Assembly: GCA_013335535.1 (NCBI GenBank)
Contig: JAAXVL010000004.1
Span: 1 to 64,000 of the forward strand
Source of the DNA: Azonexaceae bacterium
Lineage (GTDB): Bacteria; Pseudomonadota; Gammaproteobacteria; Burkholderiales; Rhodocyclaceae
Length of the DNA stretch: 64,000 bases
Reading direction: 5' to 3'
Made by a program: the position numbers and the translations under genes. The notes below the pieces were generated by a model, which ran no database searches, was not told where the DNA came from, and saw nothing but the letters and a program-made list of their open reading frames with translations. Below, piece by piece: positions 15,788 through 60,163 of the stretch (position 1 is its first letter; the number at the start of each line of letters is the position of its first letter).

Positions 15788-16597
15788 TCAAACTTGTTCC
15801 CTGATCCAGTCGCGCTGCGCTTCGCGGCGGCGTTTTTCAGTGAGTTTTTCGATGATGCGCGGACAGGCCTCGGCGAAGGGCATCATGCCGAAGGGCAGTA
15901 TTTCGTCGCAGCGCAGGATGTGCAGGCCCATCGGCGATTCGAGGACTTCGGATATTTCGCCAACCGCCAGTTCAAAAGCAGCTGGCTCCAACTCCGGGAA
16001 AAGCTGCTGGCGCTTGACGGTGCCGAGCCTGCCACCATCCATTGCCGTGGGGCATTGCGAATGGCGTAGAGCTGACTGACTGAAAATTTCGACGTTTTTT
16101 CCGGTTGACCGTAGATCTTCCAGCGTTTTCGCGGCGATGGCCTTTTCTATCGGATTCGAAAAGGTAATCAGGATGTGGCGAAGCAGGCGCGCTTCCGGGC
16201 GATCGAAGGCTTCCGGGTGCAGGCGGTAGTAGATCTCCGCATCGATTTCGGTAGCCGGGGCAACGGCTGAGGCGACCTTTTCAAGGACTGCTTCGATACG
16301 CAGGTCGCGCTCGACGGCTTCGGCCAGCTTGTCGGCATCCAGACCAATCCGTTCGAGATCGGCGGTCATGTCGTCCGGACTGGCGTAGCGCTGGCAGATT
16401 TCGTCGAGCCGGGTGGCGATAGTCGGTGCCGGAACAACGACCCTGGCCGCGGCATCGCTGCTCAGAATGCGTTGCTCGAGGCGAGCCTGTTTGCCGGCAA
16501 TTTCACCGAGACGTGAAAGCTCGTCTTCACTCAGTGTTTCAGGTGCCTTTTTGAACAGTTCGTGGGCGAGTTTCAGTTCAAGATAGCCGTTCAGCAT
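15788..16597 (-). CDS. nifM: NifM, peptidyl-prolyl isomerase for nitrogenase Fe protein maturation
   Basis: This 269-residue protein has an N-terminal helical region and a C-terminal parvulin-type PPIase domain (about 130-255: ARLLRHILITF, ALRHSQCPTAMDGGRLG, GLHILRCDEI). NifM is needed to fold the NifH homodimer. The ATG at 16597 is preferred (CGGGGAGTAAACG before it); the frame runs a little further upstream into nifZ. It is the last gene of the nifV-cysE-TPR-nifW-nifZ-nifM operon, five bases after nifZ. One copy of the dispersed CCGGTTGACCG motif lies within the parvulin-domain coding region at 16101-16114, without disturbing the protein. Confidence 0.9.
   Translation of the reverse strand: MLNGYLELKLAHELFKKAPETLSEDELSRLGEIAGKQARLEQRILSSDAAARVVVPAPTIATRLDEICQRYASPDDMTADLERIGLDADKLAEAVERDLRIEAVLEKVASAVAPATEIDAEIYYRLHPEAFDRPEARLLRHILITFSNPIEKAIAAKTLEDLRSTGKNVEIFSQSALRHSQCPTAMDGGRLGTVKRQQLFPELEPAAFELAVGEISEVLESPMGLHILRCDEILPFGMMPFAEACPRIIEKLTEKRRREAQRDWIREQV
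16101..16114 (+). repeat. Dispersed 14-bp motif, copy 1 (one change, inside nifM)
   Basis: CCGGTTGACCGTAG preceded by GTTTTTT. It differs from the other six copies at the next-to-last base. It lies on the strand opposite to nifM. Confidence 0.85.
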
Positions 16598-16601
16598 TCG
16601 T

Positions 16602-17060
16602 TTACTCCCCGGTTTTATGCGGTTCGAGGATGGCTTCGGGAATCTGCAGAACACGGCCCGGCAGGCTGTCGAAGTGAATGTGATAGGTCACGCCGTTTGC
16701 TGCATCGCGGATCACCTTGATGACTTCGCCGACGGCGCCCAGTTCAACCAGCACCGTGCCGCCAACCGAAAGTTGCTTGGCAGCGCGGACCTTTTCGCGG
16801 AACTCGAAGCGTGATGGCGTCCATTCATCGTCGCCGCCAATCAGCTCTTCTTCACGGCAACCGACGATCTTGCCTTCTTCGAGGAAGTTCACCGAGTAGA
16901 TGATCTGGTCCTGAAGGAAGGTGCCGACATCGACGACGTAGCCGATGCTGCCCCGGCGCACGAGAAAGTCGCCCGGGTCGAGGCCGGGATAGGTGCCGTC
17001 GTTGCGGACGTTACGGGTGAGGCGCACGGCCTCACCGTACTCCCATTTGGCGTTCATCAT
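16602..17060 (-). CDS. nifZ: NifZ, nitrogenase MoFe protein P-cluster maturation factor
   Basis: The 152-residue product shows the NifZ core RLTRNVRNDGTYPG, FLVRRGSIGYVVDVGTFLQDQIIYSVNFLE, which forms the SH3-like fold of the family. NifZ helps form the second P-cluster in the MoFe protein. The ATG at 17060 overlaps the nifW stop in ATGA fashion, supporting translational coupling; a second ATG follows immediately at 17057. The C-terminal half extends past the conserved NifZ core, as in A. vinelandii-type proteins. It lies between nifW and nifM in the usual order. Confidence 0.9.
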   Translation of the reverse strand: MMNAKWEYGEAVRLTRNVRNDGTYPGLDPGDFLVRRGSIGYVVDVGTFLQDQIIYSVNFLEEGKIVGCREEELIGGDDEWTPSRFEFREKVRAAKQLSVGGTVLVELGAVGEVIKVIRDAANGVTYHIHFDSLPGRVLQIPEAILEPHKTGE

Positions 17061-17398: not shown

Positions 17399-17408
17399 GA
17401 TGGTTTCC

Positions 17409-17951: not shown

Positions 17952-17955
17952 GGGT

Positions 17956-19873: not shown

Positions 19874-19897
19874 GGCAATCTCCTCGGCTTCTTTTCA

Positions 19898-19912
19898 GCA
19901 AGGATGGTGCCA
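19898..19912 (-). promoter_or_regulatory. Sigma-54 (-24/-12) promoter of the nifV operon
   Basis: On the minus strand it reads TGGCACCATCCTTGC, an exact match to TGGCAC-N5-TTGC with GG-N10-GC spacing, about 25-40 bases before the nifV start. Confidence 0.88.
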
Positions 19913-19972
19913 ATTTGCAAGTCATTGAAAATAGATTGAAATTTTAATTCGCTGCTGATGATGTTGGGCTGT

Positions 19973-20170: not shown

Positions 20171-20854
20171 ATGACCGGGCGAGACAACGAACTTTGGCAA
20201 CAGTCCTGGCGCGACGACGAGATCGCCTTTCACCAACTCGCAGTGAATCCGCTTCTTGTGAAATTTTGGCCAAATTTCCGGTTGACCGTGGAAGACCGGG
20301 TTTTTGTGCCACTTTGCGGCAAGAGTCTCGATCTGCTCTGGCTCGCCGGGCAAGGCCACCAGGTCATCGGCGTTGAATTGAGTTCGCTGGCTGTGGGCGC
20401 TTTTTTCCACGAAAACAAGTTGCAGCCGACGCGCCGGAAAGTCGGCAAGTTCACCCTCTGGGAACACGGCCGAATCGGGATTCTGTGCGGCGATTTCTTC
20501 GAATTGACGGCGGCCGATCTGGGCGACATTTCCGTCGTTTTTGACCGTGCCTCGCTGACAGCTTTGCCAGACGACATTCGCGGCGATTACGTCGCCCAAC
20601 TCCGGCGCATTCTGCCTGCCCGTTATCGCATGCTGCTGCTGACCACCGAGGAGCCGGAAGAGGGTGAAACGCAAGGGCAGCCGTTCGCCGTGGCCGACGA
20701 AATTGCCAGCCTGTACGCCAGCGCGTTCGACGTCGAGCTCCGCCATGTCGAAAGTTTCTTCGAGCCTGACCCAGATCCGGCAATCAGCCAGCCGGTGCGT
20801 GTCGAGCAGAAGGTCTATGTTCTGACGCCAAAACACGATGTCTCTCCCGGATGA
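20171..20854 (+). CDS. tpm: Thiopurine S-methyltransferase family protein
   Basis: This 227-residue SAM-dependent methyltransferase has the bacterial TPMT opening (LWQQSWRDDEIAFHQL), the SAM-binding region RVFVPLCGKSLDLLWLAGQGHQVIGVELS near residues 45-73 and the later DRASLTALPDD. Bacterial members methylate selenium or tellurium compounds and thiols. The coding region carries an exact copy of the dispersed motif at 20278-20291, where the protein reads KFWPNFRLTVEDR at a normal position for the family. Its stop overlaps the start of the oxygenase gene (ATGA), so the two are coupled. Confidence 0.9.
   Translation: MTGRDNELWQQSWRDDEIAFHQLAVNPLLVKFWPNFRLTVEDRVFVPLCGKSLDLLWLAGQGHQVIGVELSSLAVGAFFHENKLQPTRRKVGKFTLWEHGRIGILCGDFFELTAADLGDISVVFDRASLTALPDDIRGDYVAQLRRILPARYRMLLLTTEEPEEGETQGQPFAVADEIASLYASAFDVELRHVESFFEPDPDPAISQPVRVEQKVYVLTPKHDVSPG
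20278..20291 (+). repeat. Dispersed 14-bp motif, copy 2 (inside tpm)
   Basis: Exact CCGGTTGACCGTGG, with AATTTTGGCCAAATTT just before it, the same left flank as in intergenic copies. It lies on the coding strand of tpm. Confidence 0.9.
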
Positions 20855-22472: not shown

Positions 22473-23231
22473 TCAGGCAGCTTCCGATTCGGCGAGCCGG
22501 GCTTGCGCCGCTTCGCGCACTTCAATTTCCGGGTCGGCGGTCAGCGGCTGTAAAAATTCGATGGGGGCGTTGCCGACGGCCGCCAGGCGCACCCACCATT
22601 CGCTGTCCTGCAGCATGGCAGCGGCCAGGCCGGGCAGGGCGCGCTCGGCAACAATGGCGCGCACTTCCGGTTCATCGTCGTCGGCCAGCAGGTGCAGGGC
22701 AAAGGGCGGCAGGCGGGAGGCGACGACCTTGCGGACTTCGCGTTCCGGATCCTTGGTTAGTTTGGCCAACTGGCCATGCGGCAGGCGGCGGGCGACGGTG
22801 GCGCGGATCAGGTAGTCCGGGTCGTTGATCAGGCGGATGAGTAGCGCCTCGGGCAGACGGGCGGCGACCGAGAGGCGGACTTCGCGGTCGTGGTCGCCGG
22901 CCATGTCGATCAACTCTTCAGCCGGCAAACGCATGGCGACGACACGGCGGACCACTTCGTCAGGGTCTGATTTCAGCGGAAAAATCCGGTCGACCGTGGC
23001 ATAGCGGGTGGCAATGGCCCGCCGCTCCCAGAATATGTCGGTGAGGTACTCGGGTGCGAGTTCCGGGTTGTTGCGCAGGAAGCGGTCGATCTGCCGGCCG
23101 CTGTGGGCGCGGATACAGGCATCGCCCGGCGTGCATTTGCGGCCGTTCAGATAGTCCGGAAAAAAGCGGCAGCCCGAGCACAGGCCGAGTTTTCCGTAGC
23201 CTGCGTCGGCGGCGGTCTTTTCACTCGTCAT
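22473..23231 (-). CDS. lrv: LRV protein: leucine-rich repeat variant with N-terminal 4Fe-4S cluster
   Basis: This 252-residue protein has a cysteine-rich N-terminus (LCSGCRFFPDYLNGRKC, then GDAC), the LRV Fe-S cluster motif, followed by about eight 24-residue repeats of the form DP(D/E)xxVRxxVAxRLP. The A. vinelandii LRV protein, encoded in the nif region, has the same architecture, and its repeats form a right-handed superhelix of alternating alpha and 3-10 helices. The ATG at 23231 overlaps the end of the preceding small gene by 11 bases. A role in protein-protein interaction during nitrogenase assembly is likely; the function of the cluster is not established. Confidence 0.9.
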   Translation of the reverse strand: MTSEKTAADAGYGKLGLCSGCRFFPDYLNGRKCTPGDACIRAHSGRQIDRFLRNNPELAPEYLTDIFWERRAIATRYATVDRIFPLKSDPDEVVRRVVAMRLPAEELIDMAGDHDREVRLSVAARLPEALLIRLINDPDYLIRATVARRLPHGQLAKLTKDPEREVRKVVASRLPPFALHLLADDDEPEVRAIVAERALPGLAAAMLQDSEWWVRLAAVGNAPIEFLQPLTADPEIEVREAAQARLAESEAA

Positions 23232-23484: not shown

Positions 23485-24212
23485 GCTGACTCCTCCGACT
23501 CGATTTCCTCTTCGAAGCGGGCCAGCGAGGCTGCCGGCACGCCCATGATCTGGGCCAGCCAGGGTGGCGGGCTGGCCAGGCGGGCCTGCAGTTCGACCAG
23601 CACTTCGCGGGCCTTGCCGCCTTCCGGCTTCTTGACCGGATGGACGCCGGCACGAACGACCTTGGCCGCAGCCGGGCCGCCAATCGATTGCACATAGACG
23701 ATCTGGCAGTCGTTGATCAGCGCCGAGCGGGCAGCATTCTTGTCTTCGGCGGTGTCAGCCTCGACCGTCGTGCGGATGTCGATGAGCCGGATGGCGTCGG
23801 AGCTGACCTGATAGACCAGGAAGCGTTCGCATGAGCCGAAATGGCCATCGAGCGTTTCGCCGCGATTGGCCGCAATGGCTACGCGCAGCGAACCGGGCAT
23901 GTCGCCGTCGGTGTAGGCGTCGACCGCCGGAAAGTCGCTGTTCTCGACACCCTGGCCCCAGAGCAGGCGGACGGCTTCCTTGAGCGCTTCGCCTTCGACG
24001 CCGACATGGCAGCCCTGTTCGGCAAAGTCGCCGGCCAGGATGACGCGCAGGTCTTCAACCGTCAGCGTACCGAGCTTGGCTTCGGTGAGCGGGGCTTCCA
24101 GTTTCTCGATCAGCGCGCCAACCAGGGCACGAACATCGAGACCGTTCAGGGCGCGGGCTGCGAGCGCAATGCGCAGGGCTGCTTCGCGAGAGGCAATTGG
24201 CGTGTTCGACAT
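23481..24212 (-). CDS. nifY: NifY/NafY-type FeMo-cofactor-binding protein
   Basis: This 243-residue protein has an N-terminal helical domain (about 1-95, ASREAALRIALAARALNGLDV) and a C-terminal NifX-like domain (about 110-215) with VAIAANRGETLDGHFGSCERFLVYQV. The histidine of DGHFGSC matches the cofactor ligand described for NafY. It should hold apo-MoFe protein or FeMo-co during insertion. The ATG at 24212 has GGAG six bases upstream; an earlier GTG is less likely. A clear relative lies at 52353-53087 in nif block 2. Confidence 0.9.
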   Translation of the reverse strand: MSNTPIASREAALRIALAARALNGLDVRALVGALIEKLEAPLTEAKLGTLTVEDLRVILAGDFAEQGCHVGVEGEALKEAVRLLWGQGVENSDFPAVDAYTDGDMPGSLRVAIAANRGETLDGHFGSCERFLVYQVSSDAIRLIDIRTTVEADTAEDKNAARSALINDCQIVYVQSIGGPAAAKVVRAGVHPVKKPEGGKAREVLVELQARLASPPPWLAQIMGVPAASLARFEEEIESEESA

Positions 24213-30130: not shown

Positions 30131-30193
30131 CGCCTTGCCGCTTGTCGCGAGGCACTGACTGCCTCCTCCCGATTTCATTTTTGGCCATTTTTT

Positions 30194-30207
30194 CCGGTTG
30201 ACCGTGG
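30194..30207 (+). repeat. Dispersed 14-bp motif, copy 3
   Basis: Exact CCGGTTGACCGTGG preceded by TTTTTGGCCATTTTTT, 64 bases after the draT stop. Confidence 0.9.
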
Positions 30208-30312
30208 AAATTGCCCGGCCGGGCATGTGAACCGATTCGCCCGCGGGGCAGGCCGGTCATGGCCTGCCGCCTTGTCGTTTGTTCGGTGTTGGCCGGCTCA
30301 AAAGCACCCCAT

Positions 30313-40530: not shown

Positions 40531-40578
40531 CCGGAAAAACGGCCAAGACGGAATTTCGATTTTGGCCGTTTTTTCCGG
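40531..40578 (+). terminator. Long stem-loop after the TodT-like gene, merging into the dispersed motif
   Basis: CCGGAAAAACGGCCAA pairs with TTGGCCGTTTTTTCCGG (one bulged T). The right arm is the left flank and first bases of motif copy 4, so here the motif serves as half of a terminator. Confidence 0.75.
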
Positions 40579-40588
40579 TTGACCGTGG
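40575..40588 (+). repeat. Dispersed 14-bp motif, copy 4
   Basis: Exact CCGGTTGACCGTGG preceded by ATTTTGGCCGTTTTTT, 50 bases after the TodT-like gene. Confidence 0.9.
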
Positions 40589-40845
40589 AAGCTCGCTCAA
40601 GGACGCTCTGCAGTGGCGTATTCTGCTTCCAGCAAAAGTGCTAATAGGTTTCGCATAGTGAATTGTTGGTGCCGAATGGATTGCCATCGGAATAAATGGC
40701 ACTAATTTCCAATTCGTTTGTCACAAAAAAGTTAGCCTGAATAATCTTTCTCGCCCCACGGCGAGAAAACTGCTGCTCGCAACTCGATGGATCGCTGCTC
40801 TTGCTTGAAAGAGCCTTGTCGTGAACGTTGTAGGGGGAATGCGTC

Positions 40846-41280
40846 ATGTTGAGAATCATCGTCATCATGTTGCTGTTTCTGGTGGGCCACGCCTTTGGCA
40901 TTGAGCAGCCCATCGGCCATGTAAAAAGCGTTAGCGGCGAGGCAACAATCACGAGCGGCGAGAAAAAAATCAAGGCCGAGGTTGGTTCACCGATCTACCA
41001 GGGAAGCATTCTGCAAACCGGGAAAAATAGCGCGATGGGTGTTACTTTCAAGGATGAGACGGTCATGTCCTTCGGTGCCGATACCGTTTTCTCCGTCGAT
41101 GAATATTTGTATTCACCAGCGCAGGGGAATCTGAAATTCAGCAGCAAACTGGCCAAGGGCAGCCTCAACTATGTCTCCGGGGTGATTGAAAAGCTGAAGC
41201 CCGACGCCGTGACGGTGCGGACCAAATCCGGAATCATCGGGGTCCGCGGTACCCAATTTCTCCTCAGGGTTGAAGAATGA
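40846..41280 (+). CDS. FecR-domain periplasmic protein
   Basis: This 144-residue protein has a signal peptide (about 1-18, IIVIMLLFLVGHAFG) and a FecR domain (GHVKSVSGEATITSGEKKIKAEVGSPIYQGSILQTG ... VRTKSGIIGVRGTQF). It lacks a transmembrane anti-sigma part and no sigma factor gene is near, so it is not a classical FecR. The OmpA-like gene starts within its stop (ATGA). The set FecR-OmpA-cyclase suggests an envelope-sensing module. Confidence 0.82.
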   Translation: MLRIIVIMLLFLVGHAFGIEQPIGHVKSVSGEATITSGEKKIKAEVGSPIYQGSILQTGKNSAMGVTFKDETVMSFGADTVFSVDEYLYSPAQGNLKFSSKLAKGSLNYVSGVIEKLKPDAVTVRTKSGIIGVRGTQFLLRVEE

Positions 41281-41891
41281 ACCCGCAAGTGTCGGGCTCC
41301 CCGTTGTGGCGTGGCGGTTCGCGCTCGCTGTGTACCTTCATTTTGCTGTCGATGCTGTTGGGGGGATGTGCAACGAAATCATATGTCGTACTGCTACCCA
41401 GCCCCGACGGCTCGGTTGGCGAGGTCGTGATCAAGGGAGAAAAAGGTGAACAGGTGCTTAACCAGGCCGGTCAGGCTGGGTCGCTGGACGGGCGCGCGCT
41501 CAAGATAGAAGAGAGGCAGATCAAGGAGGACTTCGGCGCTACCATCGCTGCCTTGCCCAAGATACCCGTACGTTATCTGCTCTATTTCTCAGCAGGAACC
41601 ACACTGACGCCCCAGTCGGAATCCTTGATCCCCAAGATAATCAGCGAGGCAAAGACAAGACCGGCCGTCGATATTTCGGTCATTGGCCATACCGACACCG
41701 TTTTTACCGACCCCTACAACATGCAGTTGGCGTTGAAGCGAGCCGGCAGGGTATCCGAGCTGCTCACGGAGAAAGGGCTCAAGGCCAATTCGATGGTCAT
41801 CGAATCCCACGGTAAAAGAAACCTGCTCATTCCGACGCCGGACAATACCTGGGAACCACGAAACCGTCGTGTCGAGGTGTCAGTCCGCTAG
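41277..41891 (+). CDS. OmpA-family outer-membrane lipoprotein
   Basis: This 204-residue protein has a lipobox (SMLLGGCAT, lipidated Cys near 31) and a C-terminal OmpA domain (about 100-204) with YFSAGTTLTPQSESLI, VIGHTDTV, LALKRAGRVSELL and NRRVEVSV, which bind peptidoglycan. Translation is coupled to the FecR gene by a four-base overlap. Likely tethers a sensing complex to the cell wall (inference). Confidence 0.85.
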   Translation: MNPQVSGSPLWRGGSRSLCTFILLSMLLGGCATKSYVVLLPSPDGSVGEVVIKGEKGEQVLNQAGQAGSLDGRALKIEERQIKEDFGATIAALPKIPVRYLLYFSAGTTLTPQSESLIPKIISEAKTRPAVDISVIGHTDTVFTDPYNMQLALKRAGRVSELLTEKGLKANSMVIESHGKRNLLIPTPDNTWEPRNRRVEVSVR

Positions 41892-41987
41892 GCCTCTCAG
41901 GGTACTGGCACGCCGGGTAGTTAGGTAAGCTTGGGTGATTCGCGGCGCACGGAACCTGTCGTGCGTGTTCATCTGGGAGGGGGCCAT

Positions 41988-44180
41988 GTGAAAATTGTCC
42001 ATGTTCCAAGCCGATTTCTGAAGAACAACAAGGCACTCAAACGGCTGGGCGTCCTGCTGCCCATTATCTCGGTCGTCTTCGGTCTCGCGTTGCTGATTGT
42101 GGATCCGCTTCCCATGCAAACACTACGCAATAACGTGTTTGATCAATATCAGCGCTGGTACCCCCGCCCCTACGACGTTGTTCCCGTGCGCATAGTGGAC
42201 ATCGACGAGGAAACCTTGACCCGTCTAGGGCAATGGCCCTGGCCGAGGACGCGCCTGGCCGAACTCGTCGGCCGCCTGAAAGATGCCGGGGTGGCCGCTA
42301 TCGGCTTCGACGTGTTGCTTGCCGAGGCCGATAGAACCTCGCCCAAGGCGATGGCGCAACTGTGGAAACTGCACGGCGCGGCACGCAAGTCGCTTGAGCG
42401 GCTGCCGGACCACGATCTGGTGCTGGCCAAAAGCTTCGAGCTTGCCAATGTGAGCCTGGGCTTCGTCCTGCAGAGAGGGGAGGGGGCGAGTGGAGAGGGC
42501 GACGAGGCATCCGGCTTGGCACATCGACCGTTCCGCTACATCAGTTCTGGGCAGAATCCGATCAGTCATCTGCACGCCTTTGATGCGGTGATCACGGCCA
42601 GACCGGAGTTCGAGGCAGCCGCCCTTGGCAACGGTGCCCTGAATTTTGTTCCCGACAGCGATGGCATTGTCCGTCGCGTTCCGCTGGTCTTTAGCCTGAG
42701 CGGCAAGCCGGTACCCAGCATCGCGGCTGAATCGCTCCGTGTGGCCCAAGGAGAGCAGAACTACTTTCTCAAGGCGATGCAGCAGGGCTACGGACTTTCG
42801 GAGGTGCGGATCGGTGCCTACAAGATTCCAACGACTGCCGAGGGTGACGTCTGGGTGCATTACACGAGACCTGTTGCCAATCGTTACCTGCCTGCCTGGA
42901 GAGTCCTTTCCGGCGACATTCCCGATGCGTTGCTGGCTGGCCATATTGTCTTCATCGGCAGCTCGGCCCAAGGCTTGATGGATCTTCGGTTTACGCCCCT
43001 CGGCGGTGTCATGCCCGGGGTGGAGGCACACGCCCAGGTGGTCGAGCAGATTTTGTCCGGCCATATCCTCTCGCGTCCGGACTGGGCCAAGGCAGCGGAG
43101 GTCATTGCCATCATCCTCGGCGGGCTGGCCATTTCGTTCCTCTCCATTCGTGCCCGGGCCATGCTGGCAGCCAGCGTCGCCGCGGCCTTTCTCTCGGTAA
43201 CGCTGGCCGGTGGCTGGGTCGCCTTTCGTGAGTATTCCTTGCTGATCAATACGGTGACGCCGTCCCTGATTTTTGCCCTGGCCTTTGTTCTGGGTAGTCT
43301 GATCCATCACTTTATCAGCGAGCGTGAACAGCGATGGATCAAGGACATGTTTTCCCGCTACGTCTCGCCAAACCGTGTCGACTATCTGGTCAAGCACCCG
43401 GAAGCAATGAGCCTGGGTGGCGGGCGTCAGGAGTGCAGCTTCGTATTCACCGATCTGGCCAATTTCACCTGTCTCATGGAAAGCATCGATCCTGGAAAAG
43501 CTGCAGACATGTTGAACCGCTATCTGGACCAGATGATCGCCATCGCCTTCCAATACGAAGGCACACTTGACCGAATAGTCGGCGATTCCGTGGCGATCAT
43601 GTTTTCCGCCCCGGTGCTGCAACCGGATCACCGGGCCAGGGCGCTGGCCTGCGCACTCGAGATGGATGCCTTCGCCACGGCATATGCGCAAAAACTCAAT
43701 GCCGAAGGCGTCAAATTCGGTATCACGCGGATCGGCATTCATTCGGGCGAGGTGATCGTCGGAAACTTTGGCGGTTCGACCATGTTCGATTACCGGGCTC
43801 TTGGCGACCCGGTCAATACCGCGTCACGGCTGGAGAGCGTGAATAAGCAACTCGGTACGAACATGTGCATGTCGGCAGCAACCCTGGCTGGCTGTGCCGA
43901 TGCGGCCGTTCGACCGGTGGGCCGCCTTGTCCTGAAAGGCAAGACAGAAGCGATCGAAGTATTCGAACCTCTGGTTGCCGAGCGTGAAAAAGGCTATGCG
44001 CCACGGGCGCGTTATCTCGCTGCCTACCATCAGTTGTCGGTGGCCGGTGGCGACGAGTCGGCGAAACTCCTGTTTGCCGAGTTGGCGCTGCGCTACCCGG
44101 ATGATCCCCTGGTCAAGCTGTACAGCGGCCGACTCGAGCGCGAGGAGGGCGGGAACCTGATTTTGATGGCGGAGAAATGA
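41988..44180 (+). CDS. CHASE2-domain adenylate/guanylate cyclase
   Basis: The protein (730 residues from GTG 41988, which has GGGAGGGGG four bases before it) has one N-terminal membrane segment, a periplasmic CHASE2 sensor (about 55-330, VRIVDIDEETLTRLGQWPWPR, IGFDVLLAE), three further membrane segments (about 355-430) and a class III cyclase domain (about 465-640). Catalytic segments include FVFTDLANFT, GDSVAIMFSAP and FDYRALGDPVNTASRLE; the usual K-F-I-G-D is R-I-V-G-D here. Product is cAMP or cGMP. It follows the OmpA gene by 96 bases and precedes an antiporter with a cNMP-binding domain. Confidence 0.88.
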   Translation: MKIVHVPSRFLKNNKALKRLGVLLPIISVVFGLALLIVDPLPMQTLRNNVFDQYQRWYPRPYDVVPVRIVDIDEETLTRLGQWPWPRTRLAELVGRLKDAGVAAIGFDVLLAEADRTSPKAMAQLWKLHGAARKSLERLPDHDLVLAKSFELANVSLGFVLQRGEGASGEGDEASGLAHRPFRYISSGQNPISHLHAFDAVITARPEFEAAALGNGALNFVPDSDGIVRRVPLVFSLSGKPVPSIAAESLRVAQGEQNYFLKAMQQGYGLSEVRIGAYKIPTTAEGDVWVHYTRPVANRYLPAWRVLSGDIPDALLAGHIVFIGSSAQGLMDLRFTPLGGVMPGVEAHAQVVEQILSGHILSRPDWAKAAEVIAIILGGLAISFLSIRARAMLAASVAAAFLSVTLAGGWVAFREYSLLINTVTPSLIFALAFVLGSLIHHFISEREQRWIKDMFSRYVSPNRVDYLVKHPEAMSLGGGRQECSFVFTDLANFTCLMESIDPGKAADMLNRYLDQMIAIAFQYEGTLDRIVGDSVAIMFSAPVLQPDHRARALACALEMDAFATAYAQKLNAEGVKFGITRIGIHSGEVIVGNFGGSTMFDYRALGDPVNTASRLESVNKQLGTNMCMSAATLAGCADAAVRPVGRLVLKGKTEAIEVFEPLVAEREKGYAPRARYLAAYHQLSVAGGDESAKLLFAELALRYPDDPLVKLYSGRLEREEGGNLILMAEK

Positions 44181-44367
44181 ATCCGGATGGGTGAATTGAA
44201 AGTCCTTTTTGGTTCACGGCAGCAGCTTTTCGGAGCTTGAGCGTCAAGTGCTCATGAATACCGGAAAGAGCGTTTCCGAACCGGTTGTTGTGAGTTATCC
44301 GAATGAGATGGCGGGTGGAGTTCGATCATCGGTATTGGTGCACTTTTCAGACATAGTGAGGCAGTAA

Positions 44368-46812
44368 ATGGCCAGCGTTCCAATTTCAGTGCTTGTTGTA
44401 GCTGCGTTGTTGGCGGTAGTCGTGGCAACCGAGCCGATTGCCCGCCGAGTGAACCTGCCGCTCTCGATAACCCTGGTGATCGTGGGCGCCTTTCTCGGCT
44501 TCATCATCGATATCGGGAATGCCGTATCGATCACGGCGATGACCATTTCCAGCGAGGCGTTCCTGTATCTGTTTTTGCCTATTTTGCTGTTTGAGACGGC
44601 CATCGACATCGATGTTCGGCGCCTGCTGGCCGATATTGCGCCGATCATGCTTCTCGCCGTTGTCGCCGTTCTGGCATCGACTGTCGTGGTGGGCGTCGCG
44701 CTGGCCTGGACTTCGACGTACGGATTGGTCGCCTGCCTCTTGCTGGCCGCCATCATTTCGACCACCGACCCGGTTGCGGTGGTGGCGCTGTTCAAGGATT
44801 TGAGCGTTCCGCATCGGCTGAGCCTCCTCGTCGAAGGGGAAAGCCTTTTCAATGACGCCGCGGCCATCGCACTTTTTTCGGTTCTGATGACAATGCTGAC
44901 CAGCGGTTCGGGCGATTGGAGCGACGCCGTCTGGGCTTTTCTGCGCGGCTTTTCCGGCGGCTTGCTTGTCGGATTCGTACTCGCCATTCTTGCCACACAC
45001 CTGCTCACACATCTGCCGGGCAAACGAACGGCCGAAGTGACCGTCACGGTTACGGTCGCCTACCTCGCCTTCGTCATCGGCGAGCTTGCCTTTCATGTTT
45101 CCGGCGTCGTTGCCGTTGTTTCGGCAGCGCTGGTTTTCTCCTACGACGGGCGGACCCGTGTGTCGCCCGAAACCTGGTCCTTCCTCGTGCGGATCTGGAA
45201 ACAGCTGGGCTATTGGGCGAGTTCGCTGATTTTCCTGCTTGCCGCCCTGCGCATTCCCGATCTGCTCTCCGGGGCCGGTCTGGCCGATATCCTGATGCTC
45301 GGCGTACTAGTGCTGAGCGCCCTGGCAGCGCGCGGTCTTGTGTTGTTTGGGCTGATGCCGCTGATGAGTGTCGTGGGCTTGGCGCAAAAGGTCGAGAGCG
45401 GGTTGCGTCTGGTGATTCTATGGGGCGGCTTGCGCGGTGCCATCTCGCTGGCGCTGGCCATGGCCGTGCTCGAACACCCGGCCGTTCCGCCCGAAATCAA
45501 GCGTCTGGTCTCGACCCTGGTCACCGCGTTTGTGCTGTTCACCTTGTTCGTCAACGGGTTGACGCTTCGGCCACTGATCCGGGCGCTCAATATCGATCGC
45601 CTGTCGTCGGTTGATCGCATCCTGCGTGGCCGGGCAATTGCCCACAGTCTGGGCACGGTCAAGCACCGTCTCGATGCTGCTGCCGATCAGTATCGTATCG
45701 ATACCATCGTCCGCCAGAATTTGGCCGACGATTACACCCAGCGCCTGCAGGATGCAGAGATGTCGTTTGATCTGGATACCGCGCTCTCCGACAAGCAGCG
45801 CTTGCGCGTCGCTTTGGTGGCGACGGCCCGACGCGAGCAGGTGCTGCATTTGCAGCATTATCGGGAACGCATCGTCTCGGGCCGGATTGTCCGTAACCTC
45901 GTCGCCCAGGCCTACCATCTGGAAGACGGGGCGCGATCCGATGGCCGCCAAGGCTACGAAATCGCCTCCCGGCGCGAACTGGCCTTTCCCCTGGAGTTCC
46001 GCCTGGCCATCGAAGTGCATCGGTGGCTGGGCTGGCAGCGCTGGCTGGCTGGCGCTTTGGCTGACCGGCTCGAAACCTTGCTGGTTGGGCGGGCCACTGT
46101 CCACACGCTCTTGCACTTCGCCGAAGAACGTATTCCGGAAATGCTCGGGTCCGAAGCTGCCAAGTTGCTGATCGAGGTTCTGACCAAAAGACAGGAGGCA
46201 ATCGAAGACACGCTGGCAGCCTTGCGGCTTCAGTACGCCGATTTTGCCGAAAAGATGCAGGTTCGTTATCTGGAGCGTGCTGCGCTGCGAATCGAGCATG
46301 CCGAATACCTGCGCCTGTTCAACGAAGCGGTGATCAGCCGGGAGATTCTGCGTGGTCTGCTCGGTGATCTCTCGGCCCGCTGGCGCAGTGCAAACCGGCG
46401 TCCATCGCTGGACCTCCAGTTGAGTGCCATGGCCCTGCTGGGGCAGGTTCCCTTGTTTCAGAACCTGGAGACATCAATGTTGGAATCGATTGCCGCCGTT
46501 CTCAAACCGCGCTTTGCACTGCCTGGCGAAAAGGTCATCCGCAAGGGCGAAAAGGGTCAGGAAATGTTCTTTGTCGCATCGGGCGCGCTGGAGGTGGCGG
46601 TGCCCGGACAGACGCTCAGGCTGGGCTCAGGAGATTATTTTGGTGAATTGGCCCTGCTTAACCAGTCGCCGCGCACCGCCGATGTAACCGCACTCGGCTT
46701 TTGCGAGCTGCTGGTGATGACCGCCGACGACTTCGCCAGCCTTCTCGACCGCCATTCGGAACTCAATTCGCACGTTGCCGAGACGGCAAAGGTCCGCCTG
46801 GCGCGAGGCTGA
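44368..46812 (+). CDS. CPA1/NhaP-type Na+/H+ antiporter with C-terminal cyclic-nucleotide-binding domain
   Basis: This 814-residue inner-membrane protein has about twelve membrane segments (1-410) with the CPA1 motifs STTDPVAVVALFKDL and LVEGESLFNDAAAIALFS, a long cytoplasmic helical part (about 420-680) and a cNMP-binding domain (about 690-805: FALPGEKVIRKGEKGQEMFFVASGALEV, GDYFGELALL, SPRTADVTAL). The GELAL and R-T-A positions match the phosphate-binding cassette. Close relatives include the plant SOS1-like exchangers. The cyclase gene lies 187 bases upstream on the same strand. GTGAGGCAG precedes the ATG. Confidence 0.9.
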   Translation: MASVPISVLVVAALLAVVVATEPIARRVNLPLSITLVIVGAFLGFIIDIGNAVSITAMTISSEAFLYLFLPILLFETAIDIDVRRLLADIAPIMLLAVVAVLASTVVVGVALAWTSTYGLVACLLLAAIISTTDPVAVVALFKDLSVPHRLSLLVEGESLFNDAAAIALFSVLMTMLTSGSGDWSDAVWAFLRGFSGGLLVGFVLAILATHLLTHLPGKRTAEVTVTVTVAYLAFVIGELAFHVSGVVAVVSAALVFSYDGRTRVSPETWSFLVRIWKQLGYWASSLIFLLAALRIPDLLSGAGLADILMLGVLVLSALAARGLVLFGLMPLMSVVGLAQKVESGLRLVILWGGLRGAISLALAMAVLEHPAVPPEIKRLVSTLVTAFVLFTLFVNGLTLRPLIRALNIDRLSSVDRILRGRAIAHSLGTVKHRLDAAADQYRIDTIVRQNLADDYTQRLQDAEMSFDLDTALSDKQRLRVALVATARREQVLHLQHYRERIVSGRIVRNLVAQAYHLEDGARSDGRQGYEIASRRELAFPLEFRLAIEVHRWLGWQRWLAGALADRLETLLVGRATVHTLLHFAEERIPEMLGSEAAKLLIEVLTKRQEAIEDTLAALRLQYADFAEKMQVRYLERAALRIEHAEYLRLFNEAVISREILRGLLGDLSARWRSANRRPSLDLQLSAMALLGQVPLFQNLETSMLESIAAVLKPRFALPGEKVIRKGEKGQEMFFVASGALEVAVPGQTLRLGSGDYFGELALLNQSPRTADVTALGFCELLVMTADDFASLLDRHSELNSHVAETAKVRLARG

Positions 46813-46828
46813 TTGGTGTCACGCACCA

Positions 46829-46851
46829 GGGCTTGCCGGCTGGGCAAGCCC
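46829..46851 (+). terminator. Terminator-like hairpin after the antiporter gene
   Basis: GGGCTTGCC/GGCAAGCCC arms with a five-base loop, then GCCGATTTTAATTTT. Confidence 0.7.
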
Positions 46852-46877
46852 GCCGATTTTAATTTTGGCCGATTTTT

Positions 46878-46891
46878 CCGGTTGACCGTGG
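46878..46891 (+). repeat. Dispersed 14-bp motif, copy 5
   Basis: Exact CCGGTTGACCGTGG preceded by AATTTTGGCCGATTTTT, 65 bases after the antiporter stop and 17 before the convergent CoA-transferase stop. Confidence 0.9.
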
Positions 46892-46908
46892 CAAGTGGTG
46901 GCGGCGCC

Positions 46909-52352: not shown

Positions 52353-53087
52353 TCACTCTTCAATCTCAGCCGCGCTGTAGTTCTTCAGCCGCTTCTCGGC
52401 CGATACGCCGAGCACCTTGAGCAGCCAGGGCGGCGGCGATTCGACCATGGCCACCTGGAAGGGCTGGAGGATGTCGAGCGCCGGGCCACCATCGGGAATC
52501 TTGATCGGGTAGATGTCGGCGCGGATGACCTTGGCGGCAGCCGGGCCGCCGATGGACACGACGTAGCAGACGTGACAATCGCCGATCAGCCTGGCGCGCC
52601 ACAGGTTCTTGTCCTCGGAAAACTCGGCGTCCATGGTGTCGCGGATATCGACCAGGCGGATTTCGGTCGGCGACACCTGATAGACCAGGAAACGCAGGCA
52701 GGAGCCGAAGTGGCCGGAGAGCAGGTCGCCCTTGTCGGAGGCGATGGCGACGCGCACCGAGCCGGGCATGTCGCCGTCTTCATAGGCCTCGATCTTGGGC
52801 AGCGAATCGTCGCCCTGCGTTTCGCCCCACAGGATGCGCACGGCCAGTTTCATGGCCTCGAGGCCGATGCCGATATCCTCGCCGTCCTCTTCGCCGTCGG
52901 CGCTGGCAAAGCCGGTCTTGAGCATGGTCACCGTCGTCTGGCGCAGCTTTTCCTCGTCGATGTCCTCGCCAAGGCGGCGTTGCAGCAATTCAATCAGCGC
53001 CGGCAGGCTGGCATTGGGCATGGCCCGCGAGGCCAGCGCAATGCGCAGCGCGGCTTCGCGGGTAATCGGAGGCGTGGCTTTTTCCAT
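52353..53087 (-). CDS. Second NifY/NafY-type protein
   Basis: This 244-residue protein repeats the plan of the copy at 23481-24212: N-terminal helical domain (TREAALRIALASRAMPNASLPALIELL) and C-terminal NifX-like domain with VAIASDKGDLLSGHFGSCLRFLVYQV. The SGHFGSC histidine is conserved. ATGs at 53090 and 53087 are adjacent; 53087 has the better spacing to GAGGAG. Has a sigma-54 promoter and NifA site. Two such proteins in one genome resemble the NifY/NafY pair of Azotobacter; which is which cannot be told. Confidence 0.9.
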   Translation of the reverse strand: MEKATPPITREAALRIALASRAMPNASLPALIELLQRRLGEDIDEEKLRQTTVTMLKTGFASADGEEDGEDIGIGLEAMKLAVRILWGETQGDDSLPKIEAYEDGDMPGSVRVAIASDKGDLLSGHFGSCLRFLVYQVSPTEIRLVDIRDTMDAEFSEDKNLWRARLIGDCHVCYVVSIGGPAAAKVIRADIYPIKIPDGGPALDILQPFQVAMVESPPPWLLKVLGVSAEKRLKNYSAAEIEE

Positions 53088-53228: not shown

Positions 53229-54872
53229 GTGTCGGATACCTCACAAGAAGTCGTACGCGCCTACCACGCGCGGACCAAGCATCGCTTCGAAGCCTATGCC
53301 GAAGGCCCTGGCCAACTCGACTGGGATGCCCAGCCGGCAGCCTTCCGCCACTATCCGGGCGCGCCCGTCCTTGAATTGCCGCTTTCTGGTGACAAATTCG
53401 AGCGTTGCTACGGTCAACTGGAAAAAAAGCCCAAAAATGAAATCGCGCCGGATCTCGACAGCCTCGGCGCATTGCTCGAACTATCGTTCGGGCTGTCGGC
53501 GTGGAAGACCTGGGGGCCGAGTCGCTGGGCTTTGCGCTGCAATCCTTCATCGGGCAACCTGCACCCGGTCGAAGCCTGGGTGCTGAGCGCCGGGCTGCCC
53601 GGTGTCGGCGCCGGCCTGCAGCACTACGACCCGGAAGAGCACGCCCTCGAAGGTCGTGCCCTGACGGCGCCAGTGGCCGGCGAGGCATGGCTGGCCATCG
53701 GCCTGAGCAGCGTCATGTGGCGCGAAGCCTGGAAATACGGCGAACGCGCCTTCCGCTACTGCCAGCTCGACATCGGCCACGCCGTCGGCGCCCTGGCCTA
53801 CGCCGCCGCACTGCTCGGCTGGGAAGTCGTGCCGCTTGGCGCCACGGCCGCAGCGCTGAAGCATTGCCTCGGGCTGGATCGGCCGGACGATTTCCCGCCC
53901 TCGCGCTACGCCTTCACGGAAACCGAAGAACCGGAAATCCTGCTCGCTATCCGCGCGCCCGGCCTGAATACGCCGCCGTCGGCCGAAGCGCTCGCTGCCT
54001 GGCTCGATAGCGCCAACTGGCAAGGCAAACCGACGCGCATCGACCCGTCGCCCGATTACCGCTGGCCAGCTATCGATCAGGTCGCCGCGGCTAGCCGCGA
54101 GGCGCTCAGCGCGCCAGAATCCTTTGGTTTCGCGCCGCAACCGCCCCTCGTACCGCACCCGACGACAACCGGCGCCGCCCAAATCATCCGCCAGCGCCGC
54201 AGCGGCCAGCGTTTTGATCCGCACTACGCGCTGCTCAAACCGGCCTTCTACCGCATGCTCGACGCCGTGCTGCCCCGGCCGCAATTGCCGTGGCTGGCCC
54301 AGGCCACGCCGCCGCGCATCCACCTGCTGCTCTTCGTCCTGCGCGTTCACGGGCTGCCCAGCGGTCTTTACCTGTTGCCGCGCACGCCGGCTGCCTTCAC
54401 CGAATTGCCCGCCGCGCTGCTGCCCGCCGACGAGCGCTTCGCCGCCCGCCGTCCGGTGGCAGAGTTCGACCCCGAATGCCCACCACACCTCGGCCTCATC
54501 CAGCTCGCCGAAATGGGCCTGCAGGAAATGCAGCGCCTGGCCCGCTCGCTGTCCTGCCATCAGGACATCGCCTCGACCAGCGCCTTCTCGCTCGGCATGC
54601 TCGGCGAGTTTGCGGACGCGACGACCACCGGCCACGGCTACCGCGAACTGCTGCGCGAAGCCGGGCTGGTCGGCCAGGTGCTCTATCTCGAAGCCGAAGC
54701 CGCCGAAGTGCGCGGCACCGGCATCGGCTGCTTCTTCGACGACCCGGTGCATCAGCTCGTCGGCCTCTCCGGCCCGCGCTACCAGAGCGTCTATCACTTC
54801 ACGGTCGGTACGCCGGTCACCGACGACCGCATCGAAACCGGCCCGCCTTATCCCCAACGACAACAGGAATAA
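53229..54872 (+). CDS. SagB-type nitroreductase-family oxidoreductase with two domains
   Basis: The protein (547 residues from GTG 53229) has two related halves: about 1-270 (YHARTKHRFEAYAEGPGQLDW, CNPSSGNLHPVEAWVLSAG, YRYCQLDIGHAVGALAYAAALLGWEV) and about 300-535 (IRQRRSGQRFDP, HLLLFVLRVHGLPSGLYLL, QDIASTSAFSLGMLGEF, YRELLREAGLVGQVLYLEA). This is the layout of SagB/ThcOx-like FMN enzymes, which in peptide biosynthesis oxidise azolines, but no cyclodehydratase or precursor peptide is nearby. Overlapping the start is a NifA site. Downstream is an ankyrin gene. TTG 53190 is less likely because it lies in the promoter candidate. Confidence 0.83.
   Translation: MSDTSQEVVRAYHARTKHRFEAYAEGPGQLDWDAQPAAFRHYPGAPVLELPLSGDKFERCYGQLEKKPKNEIAPDLDSLGALLELSFGLSAWKTWGPSRWALRCNPSSGNLHPVEAWVLSAGLPGVGAGLQHYDPEEHALEGRALTAPVAGEAWLAIGLSSVMWREAWKYGERAFRYCQLDIGHAVGALAYAAALLGWEVVPLGATAAALKHCLGLDRPDDFPPSRYAFTETEEPEILLAIRAPGLNTPPSAEALAAWLDSANWQGKPTRIDPSPDYRWPAIDQVAAASREALSAPESFGFAPQPPLVPHPTTTGAAQIIRQRRSGQRFDPHYALLKPAFYRMLDAVLPRPQLPWLAQATPPRIHLLLFVLRVHGLPSGLYLLPRTPAAFTELPAALLPADERFAARRPVAEFDPECPPHLGLIQLAEMGLQEMQRLARSLSCHQDIASTSAFSLGMLGEFADATTTGHGYRELLREAGLVGQVLYLEAEAAEVRGTGIGCFFDDPVHQLVGLSGPRYQSVYHFTVGTPVTDDRIETGPPYPQRQQE
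53230..53245. promoter_or_regulatory. NifA activator site of the second nifY (and possibly the SagB-like gene)
   Basis: TGTCGGATACCTCACA fits TGT-N10-ACA, about 87 bases upstream of the nifY2 -24 element. It overlaps the first codons of the SagB-like gene. Confidence 0.72.
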
Positions 54873-55510: not shown

Positions 55511-55539
55511 CTTGGATATTTCAAAATTGGCTGAATTTT

Positions 55540-55553
55540 CCGGTTGACCGTGG
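55540..55553 (+). repeat. Dispersed 14-bp motif, copy 6
   Basis: Exact CCGGTTGACCGTGG preceded by AAAATTGGCTGAATTTT, between two minus-strand genes. Confidence 0.9.
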
Positions 55554-55571
55554 CAATGGCTGAAAAGGCGG

Positions 55572-57740: not shown

Positions 57741-59911
57741 GCGCGGCTGCCCCCGATGGTGCTAGCGCCGTTTCCCGGCATCGCTGCCCGGGTTTTGGGA
57801 ATGAGCAGGGCGATGCTGGTGCCGGCACCGAGCTGGCTGCGGCAGGTGATGAGTATCCCTTCCTTCCTGGCCAGACTGCCGACGACGGACAGGCCGATAC
57901 CGCGTTGCGCCGTGTCGGCGATCGGTTTCGGTCGATAGATCGCCTGAATGGTCTCCTCGGACATGCCGGGGCCATTATCATCGACCCGCAACTGCACGTA
58001 GCTGGCGCCATCGTGAATGATGTTGTCGCTGACCGATATCTTGACGATCTTGCCCTCGGCGAGCGCTTCCGAGGCGTTCTTCCAGAGGTTGAGGACGATC
58101 TGCTTGAGATTGTCGCGGTTGACCTGGATCGGCAATTCAACCTGGGGCAGGGCCGTTTCGAGGCGTATTCCCTTGGCGTTGAACAAGGTGTCGGCATAGA
58201 GCAACAGGAAGTCGTTGAGGACACCAACGAGATCAATGCTGCCGGTTGCAGGGCTGCCCTTGAGCGATTGGGTCATGTGGCCGACGATGTTGGCGACACG
58301 GTCGATTTCCTCGGTCAGCACGGCCAGTTCCTGGCGAACGCCATCTTCCGGCAGTTTCCGTTCGAGAATGCTCAGGTAACTCTTGATGATGCCCAGTGGA
58401 TTGCCGGCTTCATGGACGATCTGGCGCGCCTGACGGGTAAATTGCTGGGTCAGTTCCGCTTCGACTTGCTGGCGGTGCTGGTTCGCTTCAATGACTGCAT
58501 CGAGACTGATTGCAGCGATTTTGCCGAAATTGGCCAGCCAGGGAATCTTGCGCTGCAGGCGAGCGTATTGCTTTTCCGAGAGGCCGCAGACAATGACGCC
58601 GATGACGCGATTGCGCGCCAGCATGGGGATGCAGAGAAGACCGTCGGCAGAGAGTGCGCGGGCGAGTTGCAGATCGAGCAAGGCGAGTGGTTCAGGCTGG
58701 TCGAAGGTGGTCCGAACCTGGCGCCCGATGATGGCCGCTGCGGCCAGCGAGCGGGAAGAGACCAGTGGGATGGATAGTTGGCGGAAAAGTTCCGGTTGAG
58801 CCCCCACCTTTTCGCCGGAAATCGCATCGCCCTTGTCGTTGGCGAGCAGGATGGCGACTTTCGGCAGGTCAAACAGGATGCGGGCGGATTCTCTCAGCGC
58901 GAGCAGGACTTCGGTGTCGCTGCCCAGCTGGAAGAGATCCTGCTGCAATGGCTGCAGCAAGGCCATGCCACCGACCAGGGTCGCCAGATCCTCGTCAGCC
59001 GCAGTCGCCGGGTCGGGCAGCGGTGGCGGTGACGTCGGCGTGGCCGCACGGCGTTTGGGGAAGTCGTCGGCGATACTGATGCCCAGGGCATCAGCAATCT
59101 GGCGGGCGCGCTGGATGGCGCGTTCGCGAACGGCGAGCAATGCCGACATCTCCAGTCGCGGGCTGCTGCGATTGACGACAATGGCCAATTCCGACGTGCT
59201 CTCCCCCGTGGTACTCAGCACCTGGGCGATCCAGACGATTTGCGGCAGCGTGGTGGCCGTGACGATCTGATTGGCGGCCGTGTGATGGAAGGCGACGCCA
59301 TCGGCCAGCACAGAGTCCATTCCCCAGTGGTCGATCAGCCAGCCGCCGACGTCGGCATGCGTCGTGCCGAACAGCTGAAACTCCTCGGCCTGGAGCTTGG
59401 GGTTTTCGCTCGAATTTGCCAAAAAGCGGCGATAGGGCTCGCCAATGGCCGAGAGCAGGATCAGCTCGCCGATATCGTGCAACAGACCCGACAGATAGGC
59501 TTCATCGGGATGCGGATATTCCGCCAGTTCGGCCACGCCGCGCGCTATCTCACCGACCAGAAGGGAGTGACTCCAGTAGTCGGCGACATCGAATTTGTCG
59601 AGGCTGGGGTTGCGGTCGAAAAGTTTCTGGATGGACAGGCAGGTTGCCAGCGAACGGACGAGGCGTGTGCCGAGGGCGATCAGGCAGGTTTCCAGATTTC
59701 TGAGTTCTTTGCCCCGGCGCAGGGCGGGCGAGTTGGCGACGCTCAGTATCCGGCTGGCCAGGCCCGGGTCTTGTTCCACAATGGTGGCCAGCTCCGACAT
59801 CGTCGCTTGTTCGTCTTCGACGGTCCGCACCAGTCGTAACAGAATCTCGGGCGGCGAGGGAATCCGGGCGATATCGATTGATTCGAGAACCGACTTGGGG
59901 AGACTGTGCAT
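57737..59911 (-). CDS. HDOD-domain sensor histidine kinase
   Basis: This protein (724 residues from ATG 59911) has an HDOD domain (about 5-205, IPSPPEILLRLVRTVEDE, HDIGELILLSAIGEPY), a GAF-like domain (about 320-470) and a histidine kinase core (QIVHEAGNPLGIIKSYLSIL; NLWKNASEAL; DDNGPGMSEE; GIGLSVVGSLARK). HDOD domains often sense or bind partners in signalling. The start is uncertain: ATG 59947 is also in frame and neither has a good ribosome site. Overlaps the downstream GGDEF-EAL regulator, forming a two-component c-di-GMP pair. Confidence 0.86.
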   Translation of the reverse strand: MHSLPKSVLESIDIARIPSPPEILLRLVRTVEDEQATMSELATIVEQDPGLASRILSVANSPALRRGKELRNLETCLIALGTRLVRSLATCLSIQKLFDRNPSLDKFDVADYWSHSLLVGEIARGVAELAEYPHPDEAYLSGLLHDIGELILLSAIGEPYRRFLANSSENPKLQAEEFQLFGTTHADVGGWLIDHWGMDSVLADGVAFHHTAANQIVTATTLPQIVWIAQVLSTTGESTSELAIVVNRSSPRLEMSALLAVRERAIQRARQIADALGISIADDFPKRRAATPTSPPPLPDPATAADEDLATLVGGMALLQPLQQDLFQLGSDTEVLLALRESARILFDLPKVAILLANDKGDAISGEKVGAQPELFRQLSIPLVSSRSLAAAAIIGRQVRTTFDQPEPLALLDLQLARALSADGLLCIPMLARNRVIGVIVCGLSEKQYARLQRKIPWLANFGKIAAISLDAVIEANQHRQQVEAELTQQFTRQARQIVHEAGNPLGIIKSYLSILERKLPEDGVRQELAVLTEEIDRVANIVGHMTQSLKGSPATGSIDLVGVLNDFLLLYADTLFNAKGIRLETALPQVELPIQVNRDNLKQIVLNLWKNASEALAEGKIVKISVSDNIIHDGASYVQLRVDDNGPGMSEETIQAIYRPKPIADTAQRGIGLSVVGSLARKEGILITCRSQLGAGTSIALLIPKTRAAMPGNGASTIGGSRA

Positions 59912-60149
59912 GGATATACGATATGAATATTGACCAATAAACAGCACTGCAAGTACGGCTGGCTTGAGGCCTGCACAACCGACAAAGTTCTAATTTACAC
60001 ATTTCACAGCCAGTAAATGTGAATTGTTTGAAATATTTTTTATAGGTAAAAAGCGTAGGCTAAACCGTCAAATGCCATGTAAATAAAGGGTCTAGGGTTT
60101 TTACTAGGCACTCTAAAATGGTCGAAAATTTGATATTTAGTCGGAATTT

Positions 60150-60163
60150 CCGGTTGACCGTGG
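60150..60163 (+). repeat. Dispersed 14-bp motif, copy 7
   Basis: Exact CCGGTTGACCGTGG preceded by ATTTAGTCGGAATTT, just beyond the gltA terminator. Confidence 0.9.

Follow-up and report, generated by a model that had tools for sequence, protein, structure and literature searches.

The stretch of Azonexaceae DNA analysed here (64,000 nucleotides, contig JAAXVL010000004.1, positions 1 to 64,000; hereafter the window) contains a 14-bp word that recurs on one strand, and this raises the question of what kind of element the repeat represents. An initial annotation, made from the sequence alone, had reported seven copies and had suggested a strand-polar chromosome motif, a DNA-uptake-type word, a repetitive extragenic palindrome (REP)-like element or a binding site of a nucleoid protein. 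We observed that the word is the core of a 39-bp element that is present in hundreds of copies in this genome. Its features suggest that the repeat is probably an independently evolved, putative uptake signal sequence (USS) of natural transformation in one genus of the Rhodocyclaceae, a reading that would explain the strong facts by one process.

The element and its copies in the window

Alignment of 85 copies with at most one mismatch, drawn from 464 kb of the host genome, denoted G000 (the 64-kb window plus 400 kb of contig C1), revealed a 39-bp element of the form WTTT-CR-WTTTTT-GGCC-N-WTTTTT-CCGGTTGACCGTGG-MAA, the conservation of which fades past -23 and +18. The core, GTTGACCGTG, is strict and the outer columns are loose. 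A/T tracts lie at -22..-19, -17..-12 and -6..-1, with a spacing of about one helical turn. A 39-column matrix, trained on 81 copies of C1 and the window and applied at a score cut-off of 18, contains 54 bits of information, of which the core accounts for 24 and the flank for 27, the latter value being inflated by the choice of copies with A/T at -5..-1. Of the 375 exact cores in the genome, 267 are preceded by A/T tracts of 5 bp both at -16..-12 and at -5..-1 (control, 0).

All seven copies reported initially are present at the positions given for them, six of them exact and the one at 16101 with one change. The claim that the word exceeds chance in the window also held, with 11 matches at up to two mismatches against 0.64 expected and 0 of 100 shuffles reaching 11. 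The family is larger than seven, however, as the copy at 22986 (+) is a further one-mismatch match and the matrix adds members at 9089 (+) and 53408 (-), giving ten elements, nine on the plus strand and one on the minus strand. The member at 9089 contradicts the statement that none lies in the first 16 kb. The left flank, which had been called loose in copies 1, 6 and 7, is a general feature, since all seven copies score between 32.6 and 66.9 bits with a matrix that was trained in part on these same copies. In agreement with the initial description, the seven comprise five intergenic copies and two in genes, the copy at 20278 in a TPMT-domain gene and that at 16101 in a PPIC-rotamase gene, which is consistent with the earlier names tpm and nifM. 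A match at 19199 with two mismatches has no A/T flank and no matrix score, and it was not accepted as a member. The ten elements are:

9067..9105, plus strand: degenerate element, core 9089-9102 with two mismatches, matrix score 27.3; antisense in a gene of the flavocytochrome c sulfide dehydrogenase type (Pfam)
16079..16117, plus strand: element, core 16101-16114 with one mismatch; antisense in the PPIC-rotamase gene (nifM-like)
20256..20294, plus strand: element, exact core 20278-20291; inside the TPMT-domain gene
22964..23002, plus strand: element, core 22986-22999 with one mismatch; antisense in an LRV/HEAT-repeat gene
30172..30210, plus strand: element, exact core 30194-30207, score 66.9; intergenic, downstream of a DRAT-domain gene
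40553..40591, plus strand: element, exact core 40575-40588, score 64.0; intergenic, downstream of a LuxR-type response regulator gene
46856..46894, plus strand: element, exact core 46878-46891, score 65.6; intergenic, between convergent Na/H exchanger-domain and CoA-transferase genes
53405..53443, minus strand: element, core 53408-53421 with two mismatches, score 54.9, also an inverted match; antisense in a nitroreductase-domain gene
55518..55556, plus strand: element, exact core 55540-55553, score 59.3; intergenic
60128..60166, plus strand: element, exact core 60150-60163, score 51.2; intergenic, downstream of gltA

Distribution in the genome and among relatives

The genome count that had been proposed as a check yielded, with up to one mismatch allowed, 637 copies (315 forward, 322 reverse) in the 4,246,987 bases and 72 contigs of G000, against 2 in the reversed control. 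Exact copies number 375 (188 forward, 187 reverse; control, 0) and the other 262 carry one mismatch, a strong consensus such as has been noted for the USS and for the DNA uptake sequence (DUS). The plus-strand orientation of the seven window copies is therefore a local feature that is not borne out by the genome-wide exact copies. With the origin placed near gyrB, where GC skew flips sign, 50 of 94 copies in C1 are co-directional with the replication fork (p 0.61); taken alone, the left 114 kb of C1 has 21 of 29 copies one way, and the remainder has 29 of 65. These counts refute a strand-polar chromosome motif. Chi-type motifs and FtsK-orienting polar sequences (KOPS) have a strong strand bias, and a polar motif of this type was rejected on the same values (188/187; 50/94).

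Copies occur in both coding and non-coding DNA and are enriched in the latter in C1, G210 and G243. In C1, where the coding fraction is 0.926, 49 of 94 copies lie in genes predicted by our own codon-score gene caller, 40 are intergenic and 5 lie across gene ends; by the same caller, 33 of 78 copies in G210 and 33 of 73 in G243 are in genes. The density is 0.15 copies per kb genome-wide at up to one mismatch, and 0.235 per kb in C1. It is lower in DNA that is not shared by G210 and G243, at 0.106 versus 0.194 per kb (p 0.013) and 0.089 versus 0.187 per kb (p 0.005). Absence from islands, another check put forward initially, was observed in a 34-kb island of lower G+C that separates the two parts of comEC (G000:C33:109525-144033; same contig as the window, outside it): it contains 0 copies where 7.6 would be expected (P 0.0005), and a matrix scan yielded no element between C33 109158 and 149318. 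The first gene of the island encodes a large serine recombinase with Resolvase, Recombinase and zinc-ribbon domains. By eye, the island also carries a gene for a 1626-residue helicase-like protein and UmuC- and UmuD-like genes.

In the set of genomes searched, only part of one genus, which we infer to be near Dechloromonas/Azonexus, has the word in high copy number. In 76 genomes of this genus, copies at up to one mismatch number, besides the 637 of G000, 582 in G210, 581 in G221, 535 in G243, 485 in G244, 482 in G215, 462 in G255, 435 in G216, 308 in G239, 259 in G266 and 167 in G232, followed by 99 in G147, 85 in G249, 54 in G177 and 44 in G241; each remaining genome has at most 33 (31 in G205). 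The core with both A/T tracts was found 213 times in G210, 197 in G221, 171 in G243, 168 in G255, 93 in G216, 67 in G266, 66 in G244, 64 in G215, 56 in G239 and 42 in G232, and at most 8 times in each of the other 65 genomes. Matrix hits number 94 in C1, 78 in 480 kb of G210 and 73 in 480 kb of G243; those in C1 and the window arise partly by construction, and G210 and G243 are independent sets. In stretches of 100 kb each, G147 has 6 hits and G205 has 2, and there are none in the stretches of G206, G199, G218 and G202 or in any of ten reversed controls. The exact 14-mer is present in 22 of 199 sampled genomes of the family, with at most two copies in any genome of another genus. A common core, GGTYGACCGTG, occurs 567 times in G000 and 746 times in G147 among 399 sampled genomes of the order, and its maximum in another genus is 42 (G324; reversed control there, 8). 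No copy was observed in the 21-kb locus of the nearest named gltA among the matches listed (88% identity; a metagenome bin called Dechloromonas aromatica), and a plasmid search with one 61-bp copy gave no match.

The element exists in at least one further form. When 100 kb each of G147, G205, G206 and G199 were searched for over-represented words, GTYGACCGTGAA-like words emerged in G147 and G205, and no comparable word emerged in the stretches of G206 and G199. This second dialect, GTYGACCGTGAA, is present in 374 copies in G147, 393 in G249, 146 in G205, 61 in G239, 53 in G253, 16 in G000 and 13 in G255. In 43 strict copies from 340 kb of G147, A/T peaks lie at -18..-14, -8..-4 and +12..+15, with a weaker peak at +21..+24; 12 of the 43 are palindromic, and the inner and far peaks are fainter in the other 31. 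Some copies sit in terminator-like hairpins, as judged by eye. We compared the dialects with a gyrB tree of 30 hand-chosen genomes, in which rows were labelled if they had at least 150 dialect-1 copies or at least 50 dialect-2 copies and 15 rows carry no label; the 13 dialect-2 copies of G255 were entered as 0, with no effect on the grouping. One branch (support 98/98) separates 11 dialect-1 rows from 4 dialect-2 rows; of the latter, G147 and G249 are sisters, G205 joins an open fork together with unlabelled rows, and G253 branches next to the dialect-1 part. The dialects are related to the gyrB phylogeny, with three word-poor genomes in the dialect-1 part and a patchy dialect 2.

One of these word-poor genomes, G218, is a near relative (GyrB 98%) in which 4 copies with at most one mismatch were counted; its comEC match consists of two overlapping pieces in different frames, and its lineage has possibly lost competence and then the word. 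Separately, five viral contigs hold TTTCCGGTTGACCGTGG, two of which (L362 and L363, from IMG/VR) carry two matrix-scoring elements each and are possibly proviruses of the host genus.

Conservation, origin and surroundings of the copies

Conservation in relatives, which had also been named as a check, was observed: 51 of 78 sites align between G210 and G243, and 48 of the 51 are kept. For 28 in-gene sites, mean identity is 0.949 in the core and 0.903 in the flank (p 0.0007). In the window, the core at 16101 is identical in G210 and G243 with a gapless alignment, that at 20278 is identical in the same two genomes, that at 55540 is identical in G221, and that at 60150 is identical in four relatives (G210, G243, G221 and G255) though its surroundings are only 0.71-0.74 identical.

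Conserved orthologous sites, together with the near-palindromic centre, the phased A/T tracts, the intergenic enrichment and a spacing in C1 that is more even than random, would also fit the main rival of the uptake-signal reading, namely a site, dispersed along the chromosome, to which a nucleoid or chromosome-organising protein binds; selection on binding would keep it, and the A/T tracts would provide intrinsic bending. This part of the initial annotation agrees with several observations but explains fewer of them than an uptake signal does. About 14 bits would suffice to mark 637 sites, as opposed to the 54 bits of the element; many copies lie within genes, in either orientation; the dialect shift in sister lineages extends across hundreds of sites; and binding alone requires neither an empty comEC island nor a lower density in non-shared DNA. 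None of these points is decisive, and we consider a nucleoid-protein site unlikely.

In-gene copies appear to have arisen by substitution, as supported by orthologues that lack the motif and align without gaps at 7 of 8 loci. These loci derive from eleven in-gene comparisons below the motif threshold with a flank identity of at least 0.75, of which 10 were gapless; two comparators just under the threshold (14.3 and 17.6) and one locus counted twice were removed. Five of the comparators of the eight loci are from the dialect-2 genome G147, and only one is from a word-poor genome, G218. At the 22986 locus of the window, the G243 orthologue has no gaps and 5 core differences.

The same alignments bear on whether the element is a short mobile repeat spread by insertion, either a miniature inverted-repeat transposable element or a transposase-moved REP or bacterial interspersed mosaic element (BIME). 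REP/BIME and transposase-associated repeats have hundreds of short copies, many of them intergenic, and the hundreds of similar 39-bp copies, their intergenic enrichment and the palindromic pairs of dialect 2 resemble this. At one intergenic locus, moreover, G210 (132941) and G243 (122122) have the element and G218 is 68 and 62 bp shorter, lacking a segment that includes it. This is the type of event that a mobile repeat gives, and a deletion in G218 would match it too; for this reason, an origin by substitution is less certain for the intergenic copies. Unlike REP/BIME, however, about half of the copies are in genes, where the motif-lacking orthologues are gapless as described above. The core is strict and the outer columns loose, and no single gap near an element exceeds 19 columns in 176 aligned site-pairs, a count that insertions splitting the alignment would escape. 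The suggestion of a REP-like element or transposon end is thus disfavoured, less firmly for intergenic copies, and a mobile origin of the family seems very improbable. For dialect 2, 15 sites of G147 could be aligned to C1, where the core is kept in 4, one or two positions off in 5 and lacking in 6; the 6 sites with identity of at least 0.65 are gapless.

We also examined the gene order around the copies. Gene segments appear as if gained and lost between elements: the 6-kb segment between the window elements at 40575-46891 is missing there in G210 and is missing from its 480 kb examined, and the G243 segment matching window 40732-46813 adjoins the motif copy that corresponds to window 30194. 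Synteny between G210 and G243 is broken at 12 of 39 motif-bearing intergenic regions versus 16 of 180 without the motif (odds ratio 4.6, p 0.0008), and in the reverse comparison at 12 of 35 versus 32 of 187 (odds ratio 2.5, p 0.035). This excess, and the displaced G243 segment, would be expected of a recombination or rearrangement site for segment exchange, whether Chi-like or site-specific. However, the intergenic regions that carry the motif are longer (medians 206 and 213 bp versus 139 and 147 bp), which inflates the break counts, and the excess in a comparison confined to the window is weak (P 0.05 to 0.24). The lack of strand bias is unlike Chi or KOPS, the 48 conserved sites stand in unbroken alignment, and recombination driven by uptake predicts an identical break pattern. 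A dedicated recombination site is, in our estimation, highly unlikely.

Known uptake signals, competence genes and a possible mechanism

Sequence-specific discrimination during DNA uptake is ascribed only to the Neisseriaceae and Pasteurellaceae in PMC12616744, and PMC5031613 and PMC4212676 name the same two families. PMC1626085 describes USS and DUS as free of orientation bias, spaced with some regularity and present about once per kb, with a strong consensus and a mutational origin; they prefer non-coding DNA, and many copies are coding too. For the USS it gives a core that is flanked on one side by two A/T-rich motifs. A/T-tract shape is tied to uptake in PMC7811141, and DUS dialects are described as congruent with phylogeny in PMC3630211.

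The element studied here resembles the Pasteurellaceae USS in combining a strict short core with one-sided A/T segments about a helical turn apart, and in having subclade variants, no orientation bias, copies both in and between genes and an in-gene origin by substitution (for the USS, PMC1626085). The A/T tract centres are about 11 positions apart here and 12 in the Hin-type USS as published. The core GTTGACCGTG is unrelated to the 9-bp core AAGTGCGGT and longer than it, and there are a third short A/T tract at -22..-19, a lower density and a betaproteobacterial host; uptake function is putative here. Membership in the Pasteurellaceae USS was rejected, as GTTGACCGTG matches neither AAGTGCGGT nor ACAAGCGGT, although the element may work in a like manner. 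With the Neisseriaceae DUS it shares a betaproteobacterial host, phylogeny-related dialects, hundreds of copies and palindromic copies, here in dialect 2 (for the DUS, PMC3630211). The DUS, in contrast, is 10 to 12 nt long without A/T flanks, and its word is unrelated to that of the element. A pilin from the family of the DUS receptor, ComP, occurs here, but it does not track dialect. Membership in the DUS family was accordingly rejected, on the unrelated word and on pilins of family PF16732 that do not follow dialect.

Genes of the ComEC family and type IV pilin genes are present. G000 has 16 prepilin-type matches at E up to 0.1, 14 of them above the cut-off, and its ComP_DUS-family and GspH/FimT-type pilins lie in one cluster. 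A ComP_DUS-type pilin (PF16732) was found in 30 of 30 genomes searched. As a receptor it was rejected, since its mean identity among dialect-1 genomes is 43% (range 29-91), compared with 39% between dialects and 40% between dialect 1 and the others; this comparison covers 28 of the 30 rows, G252 and G248, where the pilin was missing from its expected position, being excluded. The FimT-like pilin was likewise rejected, being 85-87% identical only in G243 and G244; in the eight remaining dialect-1 genomes the match is 31-54%, mostly over partial length. In G000, the cluster of type IV minor pilin genes (C37:122788-124393) contains PilE/ComP-like, FimT-like and, by eye, PilV- and PilW-like genes; it varies strongly among relatives, and its FimT-like protein is 31% identical in G210.

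The suggestion of a DNA-uptake-type word finds support in the copy number, the core with phased A/T tracts, the gyrB-related dialects, the in-gene origin by substitution, the lack of strand bias and the absence from the island, while the function stays putative. We propose that the GTTGACCGTG core would be recognised by a DNA receptor at the cell surface, probably a type IV pilin. The 5' A/T tracts, with their spacing of roughly a helical turn, would make the DNA bend or melt while the pilus draws it across the outer membrane, as has been suggested for the Haemophilus signal. Fragments that bear the word would enter the cell more often and then recombine with the genome. Given many generations, such biased import could convert near-matches to perfect copies by substitution, maintain their perfection and drive the spread of the word, and changed receptor specificity in sister lineages could give rise to the second dialect.

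Several observations weigh against an uptake signal. The density is well below the published value of about one per kb for USS and DUS, a difference of degree. Spacing is more even than random in C1 (coefficient of variation, 0.69; random, 0.83-1.16) but not in G210 (0.98) or G243 (1.21), and only one close inverted pair of the element was found in C1 and none in G210 or G243. Outside genes, core and flank have equal mean identity between G210 and G243 (0.860 and 0.862, 23 sites), although a one-sided paired test nevertheless favours the core (p 0.018). The intergenic indel relative to G218 counts on the same side, as do 9 of the 15 aligned dialect-2 sites, which are gapped in 72 columns, all at identity below 0.65. 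G218, G112 and G241 are word-poor inside the dialect-1 part of the gyrB tree, and dialect 2 is not a clade. No receptor that tracks dialect was found among the ComP_DUS-type (28 rows) and FimT-like pilins. The ComEC family is present in 71 of the 76 genus genomes and in 10 of 14 control genomes, including E. coli, and so lends weak support; as a marker it does not separate word-rich from word-poor genomes. The comEC gene of G000 is itself split, its second part (171 bits) lying 33.7 kb from a short first part (20.9 bits, below the family cut-off), and a similar split is found in G250; because of this interruption, the G000 isolate may not be transformable now. Interruption by mobile elements is known for comM, another competence gene (PMC11472951). 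A limited literature search yielded no report of competence in the host genus.

In the literature searched, which leaves most subscription journals and bioRxiv outside its coverage, there is no report of an uptake sequence in the Rhodocyclales or the Dechloromonas group. With moderate confidence, we suggest that the element represents a third independent origin of self-specific uptake outside the Neisseriaceae and Pasteurellaceae, with an architecture convergent on the Pasteurellaceae signal in a betaproteobacterium, at least two dialects, a receptor other than a dialect-tracking ComP, and an import bias that shapes segment gain and loss between species. If the suggestion is true, this third case, in which a single genus has both word-rich and word-poor species, would allow tests, by comparison and by experiment, of why sequence-specific uptake arose and of whether pulling DNA through the outer membrane physically requires a core with bendable A/T tracts. 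The known cases of sequence-specific uptake are mostly host-associated; uptake barriers to gene flow would then act in bacteria of quite a different way of life.

One further repeat in the window was noted. Positions 23605-23923 and 52474-52792 mark two diverged direct-repeat pairs with an equal spacing of 28,869 bp and identities of 72% and 76%, which are perhaps paralogous genes.

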